20,987 bases of DNA, taken from IMG/VR virus record IMGVR_UViG_3300042691_019518, positions 1 through 20,987 of that record. The stretch is one strand, 5' to 3'. The first letter of the stretch is position 1. Each line of letters begins with the position of its first letter. Made by a program: the position numbers and the translations under genes. Positions 1,768 through 20,486 of this stretch are shown here, piece by piece. The stretch comes from a virus. Under the pieces are notes generated by a model, which ran no database searches, had not been told where the DNA came from, and was given only the letters and a program-made list of their open reading frames with translations.

Positions 1768-2481
1768 ATGCGATTAAATCAGTTAGATGAAAATCCGCTG
1801 TTCGTAACGGTCAATAAAACACTTAACCCTAAGCTATGGCAAGACGGAGTGTTGGACACAGAAGTAGCAGCTAAACTAGAAGATATCGCTAGAGCATTTG
1901 AAGATTTTATTGGTGTAGATCTTGAAATATTAGATTATACCATTACTGGTAGCAATGCCAATTATACCTGGACCGAATACAGTGATCTGGACTTACATCT
2001 TATTATTCCCGGTACGCCCACCGACGAACAAAGGGAACTGTTTAATGCTAAGAAAGCTCTTTGGTCAGAGCAGCACGATATTTCGATCAAAGGACTACCA
2101 GTAGAGTGTTATGTACAGGGTGAAGACGAACCACATCACTCAACAGGTGTCTACAGTCTTAGCAAAGATCAATGGTTGGTAGAACCCAAAAAGGTCAAGC
2201 CTTCAGTTGACGATGCAGCCATAGAAGCTAAAAAAGATGCTATACTGGCACAGATAGAACAGGCCCTGCTCAGCAGAGATCTAGCCAAACTGAGATCAGT
2301 CAAAGACAAGATCACACAGATGCGCAAAGCAGGACTTGAAAGAGCCGGAGAATGGTCAGTGGAAAACCTAGTGTTTAAGATCTTGCGTAATCTAGGTTTA
2401 ATTGATCAAATTACAGAAAAAATAAGAGAGCTGGAAGATGCCGAGCTCTCTTTAGAACAACAAACTAATATATTAAATTAG
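1768..2481 (+). CDS. Nucleotidyltransferase-fold protein
   Basis: The N-terminal half carries the polymerase-beta-type nucleotidyltransferase signature: a GS pair followed by an acidic pair (GSNANYTWTEYSDLDLH, residues 61-77). A later acidic position in VECYVQ (E113) could be the third metal ligand. This arrangement is typical of phage nucleotidyltransferase-like proteins. The substrate is unknown; transfer of a nucleotide to a protein or RNA is the family expectation, not something shown here. Residues about 150-230 are charged and helical. The start has a good GGAG Shine-Dalgarno in the end of the previous gene. Its last 4 bases overlap the tail of the convergent membrane-protein gene. The protein also begins MRLNQLDE, resembling the previous gene's N-terminus. 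Confidence 0.82.
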   Translation: MRLNQLDENPLFVTVNKTLNPKLWQDGVLDTEVAAKLEDIARAFEDFIGVDLEILDYTITGSNANYTWTEYSDLDLHLIIPGTPTDEQRELFNAKKALWSEQHDISIKGLPVECYVQGEDEPHHSTGVYSLSKDQWLVEPKKVKPSVDDAAIEAKKDAILAQIEQALLSRDLAKLRSVKDKITQMRKAGLERAGEWSVENLVFKILRNLGLIDQITEKIRELEDAELSLEQQTNILN

Positions 2482-3164
2482 TCTTTGCGACCGCCAAACA
2501 ATTGCAGCAGGCTTAGGAACAGATTGATAAAGTCTAGATACAGTGTTAGGGCACCCCAGATCTCCATCTTACCATCATTCTCATAGCTGACTAATTCACG
2601 GATCTTTTGTGTGTCGTAGGCAGTTAGTCCTAGAAACACGATCACAGCGATCGCTGAAATCACCATCTGCAATACTGTACTACCTAAAAAGATATTCACA
2701 ATACTAGCGATGATGATCGCGATCAGGCCCACGAACAAGAACTGTCCGATGCTGGTAAGATCTTTCTTGGTAAAGTAACCATAGAAGCTCATCACACCAA
2801 ACAAGATAGCACCGCTCATAAAAGCTGACACTATCGAACCCATATTGTAAACGATAAAGATAGTGGAAAAACTCAGTCCCATTAGAGCAGCGAAACCGTG
2901 CAAGAACAATTGTAGACTTGATTTGCTCATATTCTCATAGGCAAATCCTGCGATCAGTATAGCTACCAACGGTGCGAAAATGATCACCCATTTCATAGCA
3001 CCTGTAAAGAAAAACGCCATCAGCTCTGGACTAGACGATACCAACAATGATACGATCATTGAAGTTAATACTGCCAGTCCCATCTGGGCATAGACACGGC
3101 CCATAGCAGAATTGATCTGGCTAGCAGAACGACTGATACCTTGAGCAAGTGTAGTGTCAAACAT
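2478..3164 (-). CDS. Bax inhibitor-1 / YccA-family integral membrane protein
   Basis: This 228-residue protein has about seven hydrophobic helices. It has the family's C-terminal signatures GLTAYDTQKI (about residues 182-191) and LYLDFINLFLSLLQLFG near the end. Length and topology match bacterial YccA/YbhL/BI-1 proteins, which reside in the inner membrane; YccA modulates the FtsH protease and eukaryotic members are ion-leak channels. In a phage it could protect membrane proteins from FtsH or alter membrane ion balance (inference). It has its own sigma70-type promoter and an AAGGAG Shine-Dalgarno, so it is an isolated transcription unit opposite to its neighbours. Family assignment is firm; the role in the phage is unknown. 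Confidence 0.92.
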   Translation of the reverse strand: MFDTTLAQGISRSASQINSAMGRVYAQMGLAVLTSMIVSLLVSSSPELMAFFFTGAMKWVIIFAPLVAILIAGFAYENMSKSSLQLFLHGFAALMGLSFSTIFIVYNMGSIVSAFMSGAILFGVMSFYGYFTKKDLTSIGQFLFVGLIAIIIASIVNIFLGSTVLQMVISAIAVIVFLGLTAYDTQKIRELVSYENDGKMEIWGALTLYLDFINLFLSLLQLFGGRKD

Positions 3165-3292: not shown

Positions 3293-3730
3293 ATGTTACA
3301 CATCATCAATGATTTACGAGACAATTTATTAAATCTTATCAAGGACGATCCCGTACGTCCAGAACTGCCTGCAGACTTTCGTGTCAATGAGAACAGTCGA
3401 ATTTTTGTCTTACAAGATGACGAAACCAAGAAACCCCTAGCAGTGACCTGTGTGAAATTTTTGGAACAGATTCCCGAATCAGTTGATGACCTAACCAAAA
3501 CTGTGGTCAAGACCAATACTGCTGTGTTCTATACTATCTGGAGTTATGCTGCGGGTGCTGGCCGTACACTAATTGAACAGGCTCAGGCACAGATCAAACA
3601 AGAGCATCCGGAAGTAGAAACCTATGTGACCCTAAGTCCAAAAACTGAAATGGCTCGTAGATTTCATTTGAAGAATGGTGCGGAAGTCTATAGAGAAAAT
3701 CCCGACACTGTGAATTATCTCTACAGATAA
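3293..3730 (+). CDS. GNAT-like acetyltransferase-fold protein
   Basis: This is a 145-residue protein with the alternating strand/helix layout of GCN5-related N-acetyltransferases. It has a beta hairpin around residues 36-57, a helix opened by a Gly-rich turn (AAGAGRTLI, about 86-94) where acetyl-CoA would bind, and the C-terminal strand and helix MARRFHLKNGAEVYR (about 120-134) typical of GNAT ends. The canonical Q/R-x-x-G-x-G/A motif is only approximate, so activity is uncertain. There is no Shine-Dalgarno before the ATG. The gene stands alone on the plus strand and its stop abuts, tail to tail, the stop of the next minus-strand gene. Confidence 0.65.
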   Translation: MLHIINDLRDNLLNLIKDDPVRPELPADFRVNENSRIFVLQDDETKKPLAVTCVKFLEQIPESVDDLTKTVVKTNTAVFYTIWSYAAGAGRTLIEQAQAQIKQEHPEVETYVTLSPKTEMARRFHLKNGAEVYRENPDTVNYLYR

Positions 3731-11451: not shown

Positions 11452-11480
11452 ATTATACAGCCAAAACGATCAGTTGTCAA
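11452..11480 (-). promoter_or_regulatory. Sigma70-type promoter (11427 operon)
   Basis: TTGACA, 17 bases, TATAAT. The -35 is coding (ELVDN) in the end of the SWIM gene. Confidence 0.92.
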
Positions 11481-11823
11481 CCAATTCGGCCACGTGCTTA
11501 CAGGCACCCCTAAAGGTAAATCCCGGGCAAGTGCAGGTCTTTTCCTCTTTGTTTACAAAGTAGGAGTTGCCCTTAGAACCCTTAACTTCTAGAACCACTG
11601 GCTCTTCCCTCTTTGCATGCGAGAATGCATGAAAGGGGTTGGGTTCGAGTTTTTCGAACTTGCGGCCACGGCGGTCGATCTTGAGTTTGCCTGAACCGCG
11701 GATGATTTCACCTGTGCCCCAAGGCCTGTAGGCAACCACTCTATCCCCATCGAGGAGGTAGTCGTGATTGGGTTGCCGGTAATCAACCCCTGTCCAAACA
11801 GTCGTTTCACGCACCGCCTCCAT
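11470..11823 (-). CDS. SWIM zinc-finger protein (117 aa)
   Basis: The C-terminal CTCPGFTFRGACKH gives C97-x-C99-x8-C108-x-H110, the CxCx(n)CxH pattern of SWIM domains. These bind zinc and mediate DNA or protein contacts in transposases, helicases and recombination factors. Here the domain stands in a short protein without a helicase or nuclease part. The N-terminal half has a strand-rich segment (GDRVVAYRPWGTGEIIRGSG) with a basic patch around residue 50. An in-frame TTG three codons upstream is less likely than the ATG at 11823, which shares a base with the previous stop (TAATG). It may be an adaptor or DNA-binding protein. Confidence 0.82.
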   Translation of the reverse strand: MEAVRETTVWTGVDYRQPNHDYLLDGDRVVAYRPWGTGEIIRGSGKLKIDRRGRKFEKLEPNPFHAFSHAKREEPVVLEVKGSKGNSYFVNKEEKTCTCPGFTFRGACKHVAELVDN

Positions 11824-12089
11824 TAACGCCAATCCTTCTTGTCACCGCAACGCTCGTTATATTCGTAACCAGCTAGGTATTCAGCTCGCTCCTCAGCGGT
11901 AAGTTGCTCTACACGCTTGCCTGAATCACCACCAACACCACCATAGTGCGGTGAGCGTGGACGGCCGTAGTAGCTGTCTGCTGAGCCTCGATCGAATAGG
12001 CACCCGTGTTGTTTACGGTCAAACTGCCAACCCTTGAGGATCTTCACAAGACGCTCTTGCTCTGTGTCGGTTTCTAGTTTAATATACAT
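11823..12089 (-). CDS. Small protein, unknown function (88 aa)
   Basis: The N-terminal half has strand/helix order (MYIKLETDTEQERLVKILKG). A glycine/arginine/tyrosine-rich middle (SYYGRPRSPHYGGVGGD) follows, then a helix with LTAEERAEYLAGYEYNERC. I have a vague memory of similar phage proteins but no named family. The site is TAGGAGCGAAG; first gene of a two-gene operon with the SWIM protein. Confidence 0.76.
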   Translation of the reverse strand: MYIKLETDTEQERLVKILKGWQFDRKQHGCLFDRGSADSYYGRPRSPHYGGVGGDSGKRVEQLTAEERAEYLAGYEYNERCGDKKDWR

Positions 12090-12888: not shown

Positions 12889-13071
12889 TCAGCTATTTAT
12901 CGTGCTATATGGGTCACAGTCCATAACATAACACGCCTCTGGCTTTTCTTTACGCTGTGCCCTGGCTAGATCAGCAGCATCCTTCATGTTCTCAAGAATG
13001 TCTGCATCTTCGTCGATGAGTACACCATCTTCATCATAGAAAGGATCTTCGTTGAGTTTCCAATAGGTCAT
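12889..13071 (-). CDS. Small acidic protein, unknown function (60 aa)
   Basis: A very acidic 60-residue chain (DEDGVLIDEDADILENMKDA), probably with one central helix and two Cys near the end. The ATG overlaps the upstream stop by 4 bases (ATGA), with GGAG about 10 bases before. Second gene of a three-gene operon. No family is recognised. Confidence 0.73.
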   Translation of the reverse strand: MTYWKLNEDPFYDEDGVLIDEDADILENMKDAADLARAQRKEKPEACYVMDCDPYSTINS

Positions 13072-13193
13072 TTCACAGTCTCCTTCATGACTTCTTGGGT
13101 TTTGCCCACGGCCTTGTCAACAGCAGATGCAACGCCTGAGATCCCAACAGTTGCTACGAACATACCTGCGATAAACGCTAGTAAGACTTTCAT
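13068..13193 (-). CDS. Small membrane or secreted protein (41 aa)
   Basis: A 24-residue hydrophobic N-terminus (MKVLLAFIAGMFVATVGISG) ending in ASA, consistent with signal peptidase cleavage or a single membrane anchor. A 17-residue charged helix (VDKAVGKTQEVMKETVK) follows. I recall similar 40-residue peptides in T4-like phages of aquatic bacteria. The site is AAGGAGCGGTACT, with its own promoter. Confidence 0.75.
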   Translation of the reverse strand: MKVLLAFIAGMFVATVGISGVASAVDKAVGKTQEVMKETVK

Positions 13194-13225: not shown

Positions 13226-13254
13226 ATTATACGATCAATCTAGATAGATGTCAA
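13226..13254 (-). promoter_or_regulatory. Sigma70-type promoter (13193 operon)
   Basis: TTGACA, 17 bases, TATAAT. The TGA of the -35 box is the stop codon of the 46-residue gene. Confidence 0.92.
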
Positions 13255-13391
13255 TACCTGCCTACACGCACGTACGTAGCAGCGGGGCCTGTTGCTAAAA
13301 AGCCACAGCCGCCGGCACTCGCTACATCTGAGTGCGGAGGCAGATCATAATCCATAGGATCATCTGGGAACCTTGGTGTGGTAGGACTCAT
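13251..13391 (-). CDS. Small Pro/Gly-rich protein (46 aa)
   Basis: The chain starts MSPTTPRFPDDPMDYDLPPH and ends in an Ala/Gly/Val-rich part. It looks unfolded or a short linker. The ATG overlaps the VWA gene's stop by 4 bases (ATGA) with AAGGAG upstream, so it is coupled to that gene and could be an accessory of the MoxR/VWA pair (inference). Confidence 0.6.
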   Translation of the reverse strand: MSPTTPRFPDDPMDYDLPPHSDVASAGGCGFLATGPAATYVRVGRY

Positions 13392-14587
13392 GCTGTCTCC
13401 TTCTCATAGATTACAGTTTGACCAAAAGGTGCATTAGCCTGCTCGTTGCCTTTGACGATAAAGATAGTATCGCAATAGTCCTCGTCACCCCAACCACCGC
13501 AGGGGTAGCCGTCTGTGAACATAATGAACTTCTTAGGCTGGATGCCATTCTCTTGCATAAAGGACCAGTTGACTTCAAAGTCCGTACCACCACCGCCCAT
13601 AGGCTCGTAGTTTAGGAGCTCATCACTTTCGTCGTGTGTGATCTGTTTCCAGTTGTAGACTTCTGTGTCAAAGCACCACAGGTTGATCTTGAAGTCTTCG
13701 TACTGGTCCATAATGCCCTTGACTTCGCTAAGGAATACAGTTGCATCTTCCGTACCGATCGAACCCGACATATCGATGCTGATAGCCACATCAATAGTAG
13801 TTGCTTCTTTCATACCCGGAAGGATAGCGCCACTGTGCATACTCTTACGGTTAGGGCGGGTAAAGGAATAGTCATTGCGAACAATGCTTTGGATCTCTTG
13901 ACGGATCAAGGCACGCCAATCCATCTTAGGCTCAGTCAAGTCCTTGATCATACGCATAATGCCTGCGGGCACCTTACCTGCACCTGCGGCCGCGGCACTC
14001 TGGATCATAGCCTGCTTGATCTCGTCCTTGATCTTCTGTGCTTCTTCCTTGCTCATACCCGGACGGTTACCCTTGCCGTCCTTGTCACCCTCACCCTGGC
14101 CGTCACCCTCTTTGATGTGTTCATCTAACACATCGCCAAGTTGCTTGAGAAGGTCTTCCATAGGGATCTTCTCTGCCTTCTCGTAGAGCTCGTCATAGAT
14201 CTCTTCCCAGGCCTTGCCACGATACTTTGAATCGTAGCAGATCTTAACTTCAGTGATCTTCTCACCGATACGCTCATCAACAAGGATCTGGTTGACAGCA
14301 TAGTCCTGTGCGATGTTACTCAGGGTGCGATCACGGCTACCTACACGACCGAAGTGGTCTAGGATGCAGTGGAGGATCTCGTGTCCAAAGAGGAACTCTA
14401 GTTTCTTCTCGGATAGTTTCTCAACGAACTTGGTGTTGTAGTAGAAGTCACGGCCGTTAGTTGCCGCGGTAGGGCACCAGTCGTCTGCACATACCAGACG
14501 CATACGGGTGGCCATATTGCCGAAGAAGGGTGCTTTAAGCAAGAGTCCAACTCGGGCAGTTGTTAGTTTTTCAACAATGTTTGACAT
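13388..14587 (-). CDS. VWA-domain protein with HEXXH metallopeptidase-like domain (DUF2201 type)
   Basis: Residues about 1-140 match the metallopeptidase-like N-terminal domain of DUF2201 proteins: HEILH at 69-73, a further His at 78, and NIAQDYAVN at 91-99. A charged Gly-rich linker (about 160-180) leads to a von Willebrand A domain with an intact MIDAS: DMSGS (272-276), GGGGT (331-335) and D359. Such proteins usually partner a MoxR ATPase to load metal or remodel target complexes, as in RavA-ViaA. The MoxR gene is directly upstream. The gene has its own promoter and an AAGGAGAGCGAAAT site. The HEXXH may be a peptidase or purely structural; its target is unknown. Confidence 0.9.
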   Translation of the reverse strand: MSNIVEKLTTARVGLLLKAPFFGNMATRMRLVCADDWCPTAATNGRDFYYNTKFVEKLSEKKLEFLFGHEILHCILDHFGRVGSRDRTLSNIAQDYAVNQILVDERIGEKITEVKICYDSKYRGKAWEEIYDELYEKAEKIPMEDLLKQLGDVLDEHIKEGDGQGEGDKDGKGNRPGMSKEEAQKIKDEIKQAMIQSAAAAGAGKVPAGIMRMIKDLTEPKMDWRALIRQEIQSIVRNDYSFTRPNRKSMHSGAILPGMKEATTIDVAISIDMSGSIGTEDATVFLSEVKGIMDQYEDFKINLWCFDTEVYNWKQITHDESDELLNYEPMGGGGTDFEVNWSFMQENGIQPKKFIMFTDGYPCGGWGDEDYCDTIFIVKGNEQANAPFGQTVIYEKETA

Positions 14588-14612
14588 ATTTCGCTCTCCT
14601 TACAATGTATAT

Positions 14613-14641
14613 ATTATAGCACCGCCCGGCACTCTTGTCAA
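14613..14641 (-). promoter_or_regulatory. Sigma70-type promoter (VWA operon)
   Basis: TTGACA, 17 bases, TATAAT with extended TGC. It begins 2 bases after the T-run of the MoxR terminator. Confidence 0.92.
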
Positions 14642-14643
14642 CC

Positions 14644-14682
14644 AAAAAAGGCGGGCTACGAACCCTGAGAAGCCCGTAGCCC
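14644..14682 (-). terminator. Rho-independent terminator after the MoxR gene
   Basis: The 8-base stem GGGCTACG/CGTAGCCC with a 14-base loop is followed on the minus strand by GCC and six T. Confidence 0.85.
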
Positions 14683-14699
14683 TAGCAATGGGCGAGGTC

Positions 14700-15785
14700 T
14701 TAATTCTCCATTGCTTTCAAAACATACTTGCCGAACCGCTTGTGGAACTCATCGAAGCTCTTCATCTTCGTAGCGTCCAGGGGCAAGTCATAGTTGGTGA
14801 GTGCAGTCTTAGCACCCATAACAACCAGCTCAGTTGGGAAGTTATCCATCATATAACGGAAGAAACGATCAGCCATTTCATCCCAGTTCTTGGCCTTCTT
14901 CTCTGCACGATCCTTCAACTCATAGCACAAGGATACAGTCAAAGAATACATCGCAGATACTTCCTTGATCTGCAGATCCTTGACCTTACCATCGAGGATC
15001 TCTTCTGCACGAGGCAGTTTGGATGCGATCTTACGGTGCGCCATAAACTTCACAGCCAGGCCGTCACCGATAGCACCTGAGATCAAAGTCTGCAGGGTCT
15101 CCAAATCAGTGTCATCGTCTGTGAGCAGTTCGCTGACGAAATTCCAAGAACGAGGAGTTGCAAAGGCCTTAGAGGCACCCTTTGGATCGAAGTCATAGAG
15201 GTCCTGCTTGGCGTAGCCTACATAACCTACGACCTCAGGGTGGACCTTGTTAAGGGTAGCCCAATCCTGCCAGTCGTCGAAGTCCACCTTCATCTCAAGG
15301 TGCAGGAAGCGGTTAGCCAACGGAGCAGGCATACGGTAGGTAACGCCACGATCGCCTTCACGGTTACCCGCGGCAACGATGTCAACGCCCTTGGGCAGTT
15401 TGTATTGACCCACCGCACGATTAAGGATCAGCTGATAGGCCGCAGCCTGGACAGCCGGAGGAGCAGAGTTAAGCTCGTCAATAAAGATGATAGCAGTGGA
15501 CTCTGGATCCGTAGGCAGTTCTGCAGGAGGAGCCCAAACCATCTTGCCCTGCTCTGCATTGTAATAAGGGATACCTTTGATGTCTGTAGGCTCCCACAGG
15601 GCCAGACGAATATCAATGACCTCACGACCTGCGTCAGCACCGATTTGAGCCACTAGCTCGGACTTACCAATACCTGGAGGGCCCCAAAGGAACACTGGAC
15701 GGCGAGTTTGGATGGCCTTGCGGATAGCCTTCTTGGCTGACTTGGGACCAACTTGACGGACGGAAATATCTGTTTGCTTTGACAT
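14700..15785 (-). CDS. MoxR-type AAA+ ATPase
   Basis: A 361-residue AAA+ protein with Walker A GPPGIGKS (35-42), Walker B IIFIDELN (99-106), sensor AAGNREGDRG (138-147) and PLANRF (155-160), which holds the arginine finger. This is the MoxR/RavA pattern. These are hexameric ATPases that act with VWA proteins to activate or remodel other complexes. The partner VWA gene is the next gene downstream but has its own promoter. The C-terminal 120 residues are helical. The start is the ATG 4 bases after GAGG. The target in the phage or host is unknown. Confidence 0.92.
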   Translation of the reverse strand: MSKQTDISVRQVGPKSAKKAIRKAIQTRRPVFLWGPPGIGKSELVAQIGADAGREVIDIRLALWEPTDIKGIPYYNAEQGKMVWAPPAELPTDPESTAIIFIDELNSAPPAVQAAAYQLILNRAVGQYKLPKGVDIVAAGNREGDRGVTYRMPAPLANRFLHLEMKVDFDDWQDWATLNKVHPEVVGYVGYAKQDLYDFDPKGASKAFATPRSWNFVSELLTDDDTDLETLQTLISGAIGDGLAVKFMAHRKIASKLPRAEEILDGKVKDLQIKEVSAMYSLTVSLCYELKDRAEKKAKNWDEMADRFFRYMMDNFPTELVVMGAKTALTNYDLPLDATKMKSFDEFHKRFGKYVLKAMEN

Positions 15786-15833
15786 AAGACCTCGCTAAAA
15801 AAGCAGTTGAACAATTAATCTCTCAGTATCATA

Positions 15834-15862
15834 AGTATAGCACCTTTCGGCGCCCTTGTCAA
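15834..15862 (-). promoter_or_regulatory. Sigma70-type promoter (MoxR gene)
   Basis: TTGACA, 17 bases, TATACT with extended TGC. The TGA in the -35 box is the stop of the 210-residue gene. The leader is about 45 bases. Confidence 0.92.
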
Positions 15863-17248: not shown

Positions 17249-17477
17249 TATCTTCCTCCTGCTCAGCGATCAAACGCTGTAGTTCCAATTGGGCGATCTC
17301 CGCATCTATGACCTTTTCCTTCTTACGGCCAGCGACGGCACTGCCCTTCTTGTAGATCACATAGTAGTGATCGTGGCAATAACTCTTGCCCTCGATCACT
17401 CTGGATCCACAGTAGGGGGTTTCCCCCCTGTGTGTGCGTGGGTCGTACTCAGGACCCAAATATTGGCACCCTAGCAT
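17241..17477 (-). CDS. GcrA-like Cys/His protein (78 aa)
   Basis: The N-terminal half has CQYLGPEYDP (C4), PYCGSRVIEG (C23) and KSYCHDHY (C34, H37), the C...C-G...C-x-x-H arrangement of the C-terminal region of GcrA, an alphaproteobacterial cell-cycle transcription factor, and of many phage relatives. It probably binds zinc. The rest is a charged helix (EKVIDAEIAQLELQRLIAEQ). GcrA's N-terminal DNA-binding HTH is absent, so direct promoter binding cannot be assumed. The ATG shares one base with the stop of the AAA gene (TAATG). Confidence 0.72.
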   Translation of the reverse strand: MLGCQYLGPEYDPRTHRGETPYCGSRVIEGKSYCHDHYYVIYKKGSAVAGRKKEKVIDAEIAQLELQRLIAEQEEDNA

Positions 17478-18577
17478 TAGTAGGCTCCCTTCATAACAGT
17501 AACACGAGCCATGTTCTGCCAGTTAGTTGGGAAGCTCTTGCGAAGGTCTGCTACTTTGAGCACAGTACGCAAGCTCAACTCACGCATAGTTGCACGGTTC
17601 TCTTCGATAAAGTCTACGACCTCGTCGCGAGCAACATCTTCCATCTCGTAACTGTCCAACATACCGTCCTTGACGATCTGCTTGATACGCAGTACTTTCT
17701 CGCGATCAGTGTCCATACGCAGATCGATGTAGTGGCAACGGCTCTCCAAAGCAGCCAAGTGCTCTTGCAGTTTCTTCGAGCGTACATTCTCGAACTTCAA
17801 GTTTGTGATAAAGATAGCACCACCTTTGAACTCAAACTTGTCTGGGATGCCCTCAGAGCGTAGCAGACGGCTGTCAGTGTTCCAGCTAATAGTACGCTTC
17901 TTGCTAGAATCCAAAGCGGCCTTAAGGATGTTAAGTGCGATATCGTCCAAAAGGATGCTGTCGCAGTCGTCAAACACAAGGATGTTCTTAGCGTCTGAGA
18001 ACTGATAAAGCTTGGAGTAGAGTCCAATGGCACTCATAGCACCCTTGACGATCTCGTACTTGGGCTTGCGCTGACCCATCATATCGAACAGGTCGTCCTT
18101 GGCTAGTACTTCTTCTACGCCAAAGCTCTTGCCCACTCCTGGAGGGCCAGTGACGATCATAGCACGGACATCACCACTCTTGACTGCTTTGGTCATGTCC
18201 TTGAGGATCTCGAAGCGCAGTCGTGTACGCTCGATGATCTCTTCATCAGTCTCGTGCGCTACAGCCTCGTCAGCGACCTTGACCTGTGTGAAGTCCGTGA
18301 CACCCGCAGTCTCTTTGGAGGGCTTTTTCAGTGCAGTCAGCATACTTACTCCCTGTGGAATAGGTTTGGCTGAGCCTGCAACATTATAGGCACCCTGCTT
18401 ACAACGGATACGGATTGAACGATCTGGGAAGCCTGGCTGGCCACCGCCCTCTACGGTTACATAGCCTTCACCGCTCTTGGCTACTTTGTAGTCCTCAACT
18501 AGTTTAAAAGTGAGGCCCGCAACATTAGTGGGTTGGCCCTTGATGTTGTAATAGCCCTCAGTGAAAGTAATATACAT
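17477..18577 (-). CDS. AAA+ ATPase with a distinct N-terminal region (366 aa)
   Basis: The start MYITFTEGYYNIKG at 18577 is chosen because TAGGAGCGAACCG precedes it. Residues 1-75 are strand-rich (GYYNIKG, then QGAYNVAGSA), unlike common AAA proteins, and a variable linker follows. The AAA core has Walker A GPPGVGKS (144-151), Walker B ILVFDDCDSIL (199-209) and sensor FITNL (256-260). It is not a MoxR; the Asp-Asp Walker B and the DDCDS motif differ. Possible roles are protein or nucleic-acid remodelling. Coupled downstream with the GcrA-like and membrane-protein genes. No close named family comes to mind. Confidence 0.88.
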   Translation of the reverse strand: MYITFTEGYYNIKGQPTNVAGLTFKLVEDYKVAKSGEGYVTVEGGGQPGFPDRSIRIRCKQGAYNVAGSAKPIPQGVSMLTALKKPSKETAGVTDFTQVKVADEAVAHETDEEIIERTRLRFEILKDMTKAVKSGDVRAMIVTGPPGVGKSFGVEEVLAKDDLFDMMGQRKPKYEIVKGAMSAIGLYSKLYQFSDAKNILVFDDCDSILLDDIALNILKAALDSSKKRTISWNTDSRLLRSEGIPDKFEFKGGAIFITNLKFENVRSKKLQEHLAALESRCHYIDLRMDTDREKVLRIKQIVKDGMLDSYEMEDVARDEVVDFIEENRATMRELSLRTVLKVADLRKSFPTNWQNMARVTVMKGAY

Positions 18578-18610
18578 CGGTTCGCTCCTATGTGTTGTGA
18601 TCATTCAAGT

Positions 18611-20116: not shown

Positions 20117-20145
20117 ATTGTACAGCCAAAATCGCAGCTTGTCAA
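20117..20145 (-). promoter_or_regulatory. Sigma70-type promoter (20086 operon)
   Basis: TTGACA, 17 bases, TACAAT. The TGA in the -35 box is the stop of the GIY-YIG-like gene. Confidence 0.9.
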
Positions 20146-20462
20146 GTGCCGCGCTTGTCAGTGTTGTAAAATGGACGCAGTTCGCGGATTAATTCACGCT
20201 CGCGAGCATGTGCTTCACGCTTGCCGCGGACGATCTCTACGATCCTGACATCGATATCTTCTTTGCTGCTGTAGCCGCGTAACAGCTCACAGAGGGTCCA
20301 ATCTTTGGTTTCTTTCTGTGCGCGATAGTAGTGTTTGGCTATGCGGGCACGTACACTCTTTAATACAGTAGACTCAGTCTTGGCTGTGACACCCACGTAG
20401 ATGCCCTCAGGGCCCTGTATCTGATATATGATGTGATTACGATCTGATCTCTTTGCTCGCAC
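20142..20462 (-). CDS. GIY-YIG-fold nuclease-like protein (106 aa)
   Basis: The core fits GIY-YIG endonucleases: IYQI (12-15) for GIY, YVGVT (22-26) for YIG, a conserved Arg and His (R40, H44), the metal-binding Glu in ARERELI (E88 or E90) and the Asn in FYNTD (N100). There is no extra DNA-binding domain, so it may be a stand-alone nuclease or an inactive relative; it is close to the shortest size for the fold. The start is a GTG at 20462 directly after AAGGAGCGAACA, in line with neighbouring genes; an upstream in-frame GTG lies in that site. It lies near the tRNA cluster. Confidence 0.8.
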   Translation of the reverse strand: MRAKRSDRNHIIYQIQGPEGIYVGVTAKTESTVLKSVRARIAKHYYRAQKETKDWTLCELLRGYSSKEDIDVRIVEIVRGKREAHARERELIRELRPFYNTDKRGT

Positions 20463-20486
20463 TGTTCGCTCCTTCACTATGCATAT

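Follow-up and report, generated by a model that had tools for sequence, protein, structure and literature searches.

A conserved MoxR-DUF2201 gene pair in an early-type promoter context of a giant phage

We analysed a virus record of 20,987 bases from a giant-phage genome, here called the window. Its minus strand carries a real, intact gene pair, moxR followed by vwa, with the following features.

15834..15862, minus strand: sigma-70-like promoter of moxR, TTGACA-17-TATACT, an 11/12 match 48 nt ahead of the start codon
14700..15785, minus strand: moxR, a MoxR-type AAA+ ATPase of 361 aa (phrog_1297, E 7.8e-102; Pfam AAA_5, AAA_3 and AAA above cut-off)
15660-15683, minus strand: Walker A motif of moxR (GPPGIGKS)
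14653..14682, minus strand: terminator-like hairpin and T run in the moxR-vwa gap, with a 13-bp stem and a GCCTTTTTTG tail
14613..14641, minus strand: sigma-70-like promoter of vwa, TTGACA-17-TATAAT, a 12/12 match
13388..14587, minus strand: vwa, a DUF2201 protein of 399 aa (DUF2201_N, PF13203, 5.6e-41; DUF2201, PF09967, 2.1e-14)
14369..14383, minus strand: HEILH, residues 69-73 of the vwa product, opening HExxHxxxxHxxR; the same in 80/80 near relatives
13760..13774, minus strand: MIDAS motif DMSGS, residues 272-276 of the vwa product, with D272, S274, G275 and S276 invariant in 19 diverse phage proteins
13326..13391, minus strand: 22-codon core of a micro-ORF, MSPTTPRFPDDPMDYDLPPHSD, in ATGA overlap with the vwa stop
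13279..13319, minus strand: hairpin-forming element AGTGCC...CCCCGCTGC, 3' of vwa and ahead of the next gene's promoter
13226..13254, minus strand: sigma-70-like promoter of the next gene (13068-13193, minus strand), TTGACA-17-TATAAT, a 12/12 match with the start codon 32 nt downstream

Pfam divides the vwa product into a metallopeptidase-like domain with HExxH at the N-terminus and a VWA domain with the MIDAS at the C-terminus, with scores exceeding the curated cut-offs (141.4 vs 23.2 bits for PF13203; 54.1 vs 26.4 bits for PF09967). The pair further carries a Walker B DE, a sensor-1 N, GGGGT and TDG, confirming the claim of a first-pass annotation of this DNA that ATPase and MIDAS motifs are intact. 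Its description of the locus as a MoxR-VWA couple on a phage is upheld by the Pfam and PHROG matches and by structural matches to NorQ and CbbQ. The label 'HNH endonuclease', attached to phrog_1314 and carried by the partner in many records, was rejected because Pfam detects no HNH domain in the window protein or in gp25 of phage N4. Homing endonucleases do occur beside the pair: in Escherichia phage Pollock (L100, 4097-5023) an HNH homing endonuclease ORF comes after a short annotated gp24-like ATPase ORF (258 nt), and in PA5oct moxR and vwa are separated by a putative homing endonuclease. These neighbours may be the origin of the family's HNH label.

The motifs and the gene order are strongly conserved. 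HExxHxxxxHxxR, AxDxxxN and DxSGS are present in 80/80 relatives from viral contigs, GGGGT and TD in 79/80, the remaining protein being cut off, and moxR is the direct upstream, same-strand neighbour of vwa in each of the 79 relatives whose contig reaches that far. Among 19 proteins of widely differing phages, the residues H69, E70, H73, H78, R81, D95 and N99 are invariant; G334, T335 and D359 are invariant as well, together with the four MIDAS residues listed above. An alignment of 43 MoxR sequences keeps all ATPase motifs, with G35, P37-K41, D103, E104, N141, R159 and R212 invariant. At a threshold of E 1e-5, a VWA homologue is present in 750 phage records and a MoxR homologue in 856, each counted separately, and in most phages examined the order is the same, with moxR adjoining vwa or a few genes upstream. 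With its motifs intact and so widely conserved, the pair is neither rare nor degenerate in relatives, an outcome that the first-pass annotation had named as speaking against its reading. The near-clade alignment, used as a profile against genome contigs, found five loci. A Clostridia contig also has the two genes adjacent, and a membrane transporter and an EAL/GGDEF protein downstream of them look chromosomal. In the Vequintavirinae Ro1 and APECc02, nearby ATPase genes lie on the opposite strand and are candidate partners at most, a point that we count against the interpretation preferred below.

The AF2 model of MoxR (pLDDT 85) points to cellular MoxR-VWA systems. All residues of an active AAA+ site (Walker A/B, sensor 1, arginines) are kept, hairpin strands 72-76/81-85 follow helix 66-70 where MoxR proteins have the helix-2 insert, and the best PDB matches are chains of NorQ, several from NorQ/NorD complexes, and CbbQ. 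NorQ/NorD is a cellular system in which a MoxR ring works with a VWA protein (PMC9976466, PMC13036017), and its solved complexes (9qh4-9qhg) provide the best structural match to the motor fold. NorD differs from the window partner in having another N-terminal domain and a pore-inserting finger, and neither of these two papers mentions an HExxH domain in NorD. RavA/ViaA is also a MoxR and VWA couple, but RavA is absent among the best 50 structural matches listed and the window partner is a DUF2201 protein. Kinship to RavA-ViaA in particular, as first suggested, is therefore not supported, and the broader likeness to other MoxR-VWA systems stands.

In the AF2 model of the DUF2201 protein (pLDDT 77), the C-terminal part has matches among VWA folds. 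Over the full protein the model has no match among solved structures, and a PDB sequence search with the VWA protein gave no convincing relative; the whole model does match numerous predicted structures of phage proteins whose annotation is metallopeptidase or VWA-like. The conserved HExxH (H69 E70 H73) forms a zincin signature, with H78 and D95 as further ligand candidates, and our guess is that D95 is the third metal ligand of the putative site. The VWA part comprises ~135 aa, shows no evident extra hairpin and is preceded by a conserved loop of low confidence (~238-262), at which we would guess the pore contact to lie. A NorD-like pore finger is not evident in the model, and this, too, counts against our preferred interpretation.

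The promoters set the pair in a distinctive transcriptional context. Each of the three genes had initially been credited with its own promoter; this holds for moxR (11/12) and vwa (12/12) and not for the micro-ORF, whose best site (8/12) is at the level of shuffled sequence. The vwa promoter is a 12/12 match in 57 of 79 relatives and an 11/12 match in 12, and shuffled sequences mostly reach 7-8. The terminator-like hairpin between moxR and vwa is consistent with separate transcription units. Across both strands of the window we counted 45 sigma-70 sites against 23.6 expected, five of them 12/12, and many minus-strand genes between positions 2400 and 20987 have a consensus sigma-70 promoter of their own. 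Five large related contigs each carry 8-21 perfect sigma-70 sites at no more than 10 kb from vwa, which is located at or beside the densest cluster of perfect sites of its contig; the 10 kb on either side of the gp23-type capsid gene and of the terminase gene contain none. A sixth contig (G006), which has no capsid or terminase match, was left out of this count. The distance from the pair to the terminase in these five contigs is 42-48 kb, and to the major capsid gene 94-115 kb. The dense cluster at vwa and the absence of perfect sites around capsid and terminase genes suggest that the host polymerase expresses the pair early in this phage clade, as predicted from consensus promoters. T4-type late promoters (TATAAATA) show no enrichment, so that late timing of the capsid region is not demonstrable by that route. 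The early-type context is a new element with respect to published descriptions of the pair.

Several other genes of the window gave matches. The minus strand encodes a Bax inhibitor-1/YccA-type membrane protein (2478-3164; PF01027, E 2.8e-55) with a weak match to the FtsH modulator YccA, a small protein with a SWIM zinc finger match (11470-11832) and a small protein with a GIY-YIG match (20142-20477); on the plus strand, a small protein (3293-3730) matches a malonyl-CoA-decarboxylase C-terminal-like (acetyltransferase-like) domain. A phrog_1250 AAA protein (17477-18604, minus strand) lies a few genes upstream of moxR in 60/80 relatives. Despite this synteny it is common in many phages of other groups, and we therefore do not count it as a component of the machine.

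Downstream of vwa, a 46-codon ORF begins at the ATGA overlap with the vwa stop, confirming the overlapping tiny gene seen at first. The coupled 46-residue companion read from it does not hold, since only 22 residues are conserved as a peptide and the remainder is hairpin-element DNA. Pairwise differences, counted over pairs that are not independent, are 201 synonymous vs 30 non-synonymous for codons 2-22 and 40 synonymous vs 964 non-synonymous for codons 24-45, which are not kept as a peptide. Relatives of the L084 type have a stop straight after residue 22, L087 and L094 encode the 22-residue peptide away from vwa, and the AGTGCC...CCCCGCTGC element follows vwa in most near relatives in whatever frame, or without the 46-codon ORF. 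Taken together, these observations argue against an obligatorily coupled 46-residue partner. Judged by its codon conservation, the 22-residue micro-peptide is genuine; it is found in a minority of relatives, occurs at other loci too, and gave no match in a tblastn search against phage records. In the alignment of the hairpin, 97.6% of cells are paired, with compensatory change in only two pairs (weak covariation), and the window copy has no folding advantage over shuffled sequence (z -0.91), for which reason we claim a conserved hairpin-forming element and not a proven RNA structure. Rfam searches of the window and seven relatives returned tRNAs only, with no family match for the 3' hairpin. 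A second conserved stretch (about GGCAGTCCTAGG ... GCGGGCCAACTCTGCGCCCA), also without Rfam match, is located between the vwa stop and the hairpin and is present in L016, L020, L023, L034, L044, L045 and L055.

The moxR/vwa pair is the gp24/gp25 pair of Escherichia phage N4 (phrog_1297/phrog_1314). The gene order is alike, and gp25 scores 293 bits for DUF2201_N and 158 bits for DUF2201; N4 differs in being a 70 kb podophage with its own RNA polymerases, and its gp25 is 27% identical to the window protein. gp24 and gp25 belong to the set of 14 core genes that N4-like phages have, and both are middle transcripts in N4 (PMC4193335; a further source on the pair is PMC2784036). Neighbours of the pair in N4, Ka3 and D466 include dCTP deaminase, helicase and DNA polymerase genes. 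In 2021, Iyer and colleagues described a jumbo-phage couple in which a MoxR gene adjoins that of a vWA protein bearing a metallopeptidase domain at its N-terminus, and virion assembly was proposed for it in group 2.2 jumbo phages by analogy to the chaperones of Acidianus two-tailed virus (PMC7824862). The pair is thus already known from several hundred sequenced phages, and the first-pass view that its use to a phage is not known overlooks both the N4 core-gene work and the virion-assembly proposal.

As a virion-assembly chaperone or peptidase, the pair would fold, assemble or proteolytically process structural proteins. ATV ORF892 is found among the viral structure matches (rank 49), the PA5oct MoxR homologue is tagged 'ESI-MS/MS' as are several PA5oct structural proteins, four virion proteins are encoded near the gp24/gp25 homologues of roseophage RPP1, in a mid-phase second structural module, and RaK2 has annotated virion proteins upstream of the pair. 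In the five contigs related to the window, the pair resides far from the capsid gene and the terminase within a sigma-70 cluster that capsid and terminase regions lack, and the middle transcription of the N4 genes likewise argues against assembly. As read from sequence, the early-type context would disfavour the published proposal, and we consider a role in virion assembly unlikely for this pair.

We tentatively prefer, with slightly less than even confidence, a two-component machine of lytic phages that acts early as a chaperone/peptidase and remodels a complex of the host or an early one of the phage. MoxR would form a hexameric motor, judging from NorQ and CbbQ, on which the DUF2201 protein would dock via its VWA domain. 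The MIDAS metal site may then grip the target and bring the putative zincin-type peptidase domain to it, so that ATP-driven remodelling would be coupled to cleavage or metal-dependent processing. In the window's phage clade, the pair would be made early from host-type sigma-70 promoters, and such production would make the virion a less likely target than a complex of the host or an early transcription/replication complex of the phage. We count in favour of this reading (i) the invariant motifs of motor and partner, the constant pairing, the NorQ/NorD precedent and the early-type promoter context, and (ii) the status of N4 gp24/gp25 as core genes and middle transcripts and the replication and nucleotide gene neighbours. 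The host complexes already put forward as candidate targets in the first-pass annotation fit the early-type promoter context.

Two further functions have to be weighed against early remodelling. The pair could mature a metalloenzyme, for example of nucleotide metabolism, by metal-cofactor insertion or activation as NorQ/NorD or CbbQ/O do, in line with NorQ and CbbQ as the closest solved relatives of the ATPase and with the nucleotide-metabolism genes that often adjoin the pair. Such genes are, however, common beside early phage genes anyway, no one metalloenzyme gene is found with the pair in all neighbourhoods examined, and the two NorD papers describe no HExxH domain, which leaves this function improbable. 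Slightly less probable still is the disassembly or cleavage of a host defence complex early in infection: the early-type promoter cluster and the recurrence of MoxR-vWA couples in conflict systems would agree with it, but core status in N4-like phages of many hosts suits a general need better, and PADLOC returned weak ATPase matches only, with no strong defence-family match.

The early remodelling machine can be put in a bolder and distinctly more doubtful form. The pair may constitute a two-subunit early AAA+ metalloprotease that takes apart or cuts one specific complex of the host as infection begins and serves as a general takeover machine from N4-like podophages to jumbo phages. The literature consulted here holds no demonstrated function for a pair that belongs to the N4-like core set and occurs in hundreds of sequenced phages. 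Genome context predicts against the published virion-assembly proposal, and phage N4 is a suitable model.
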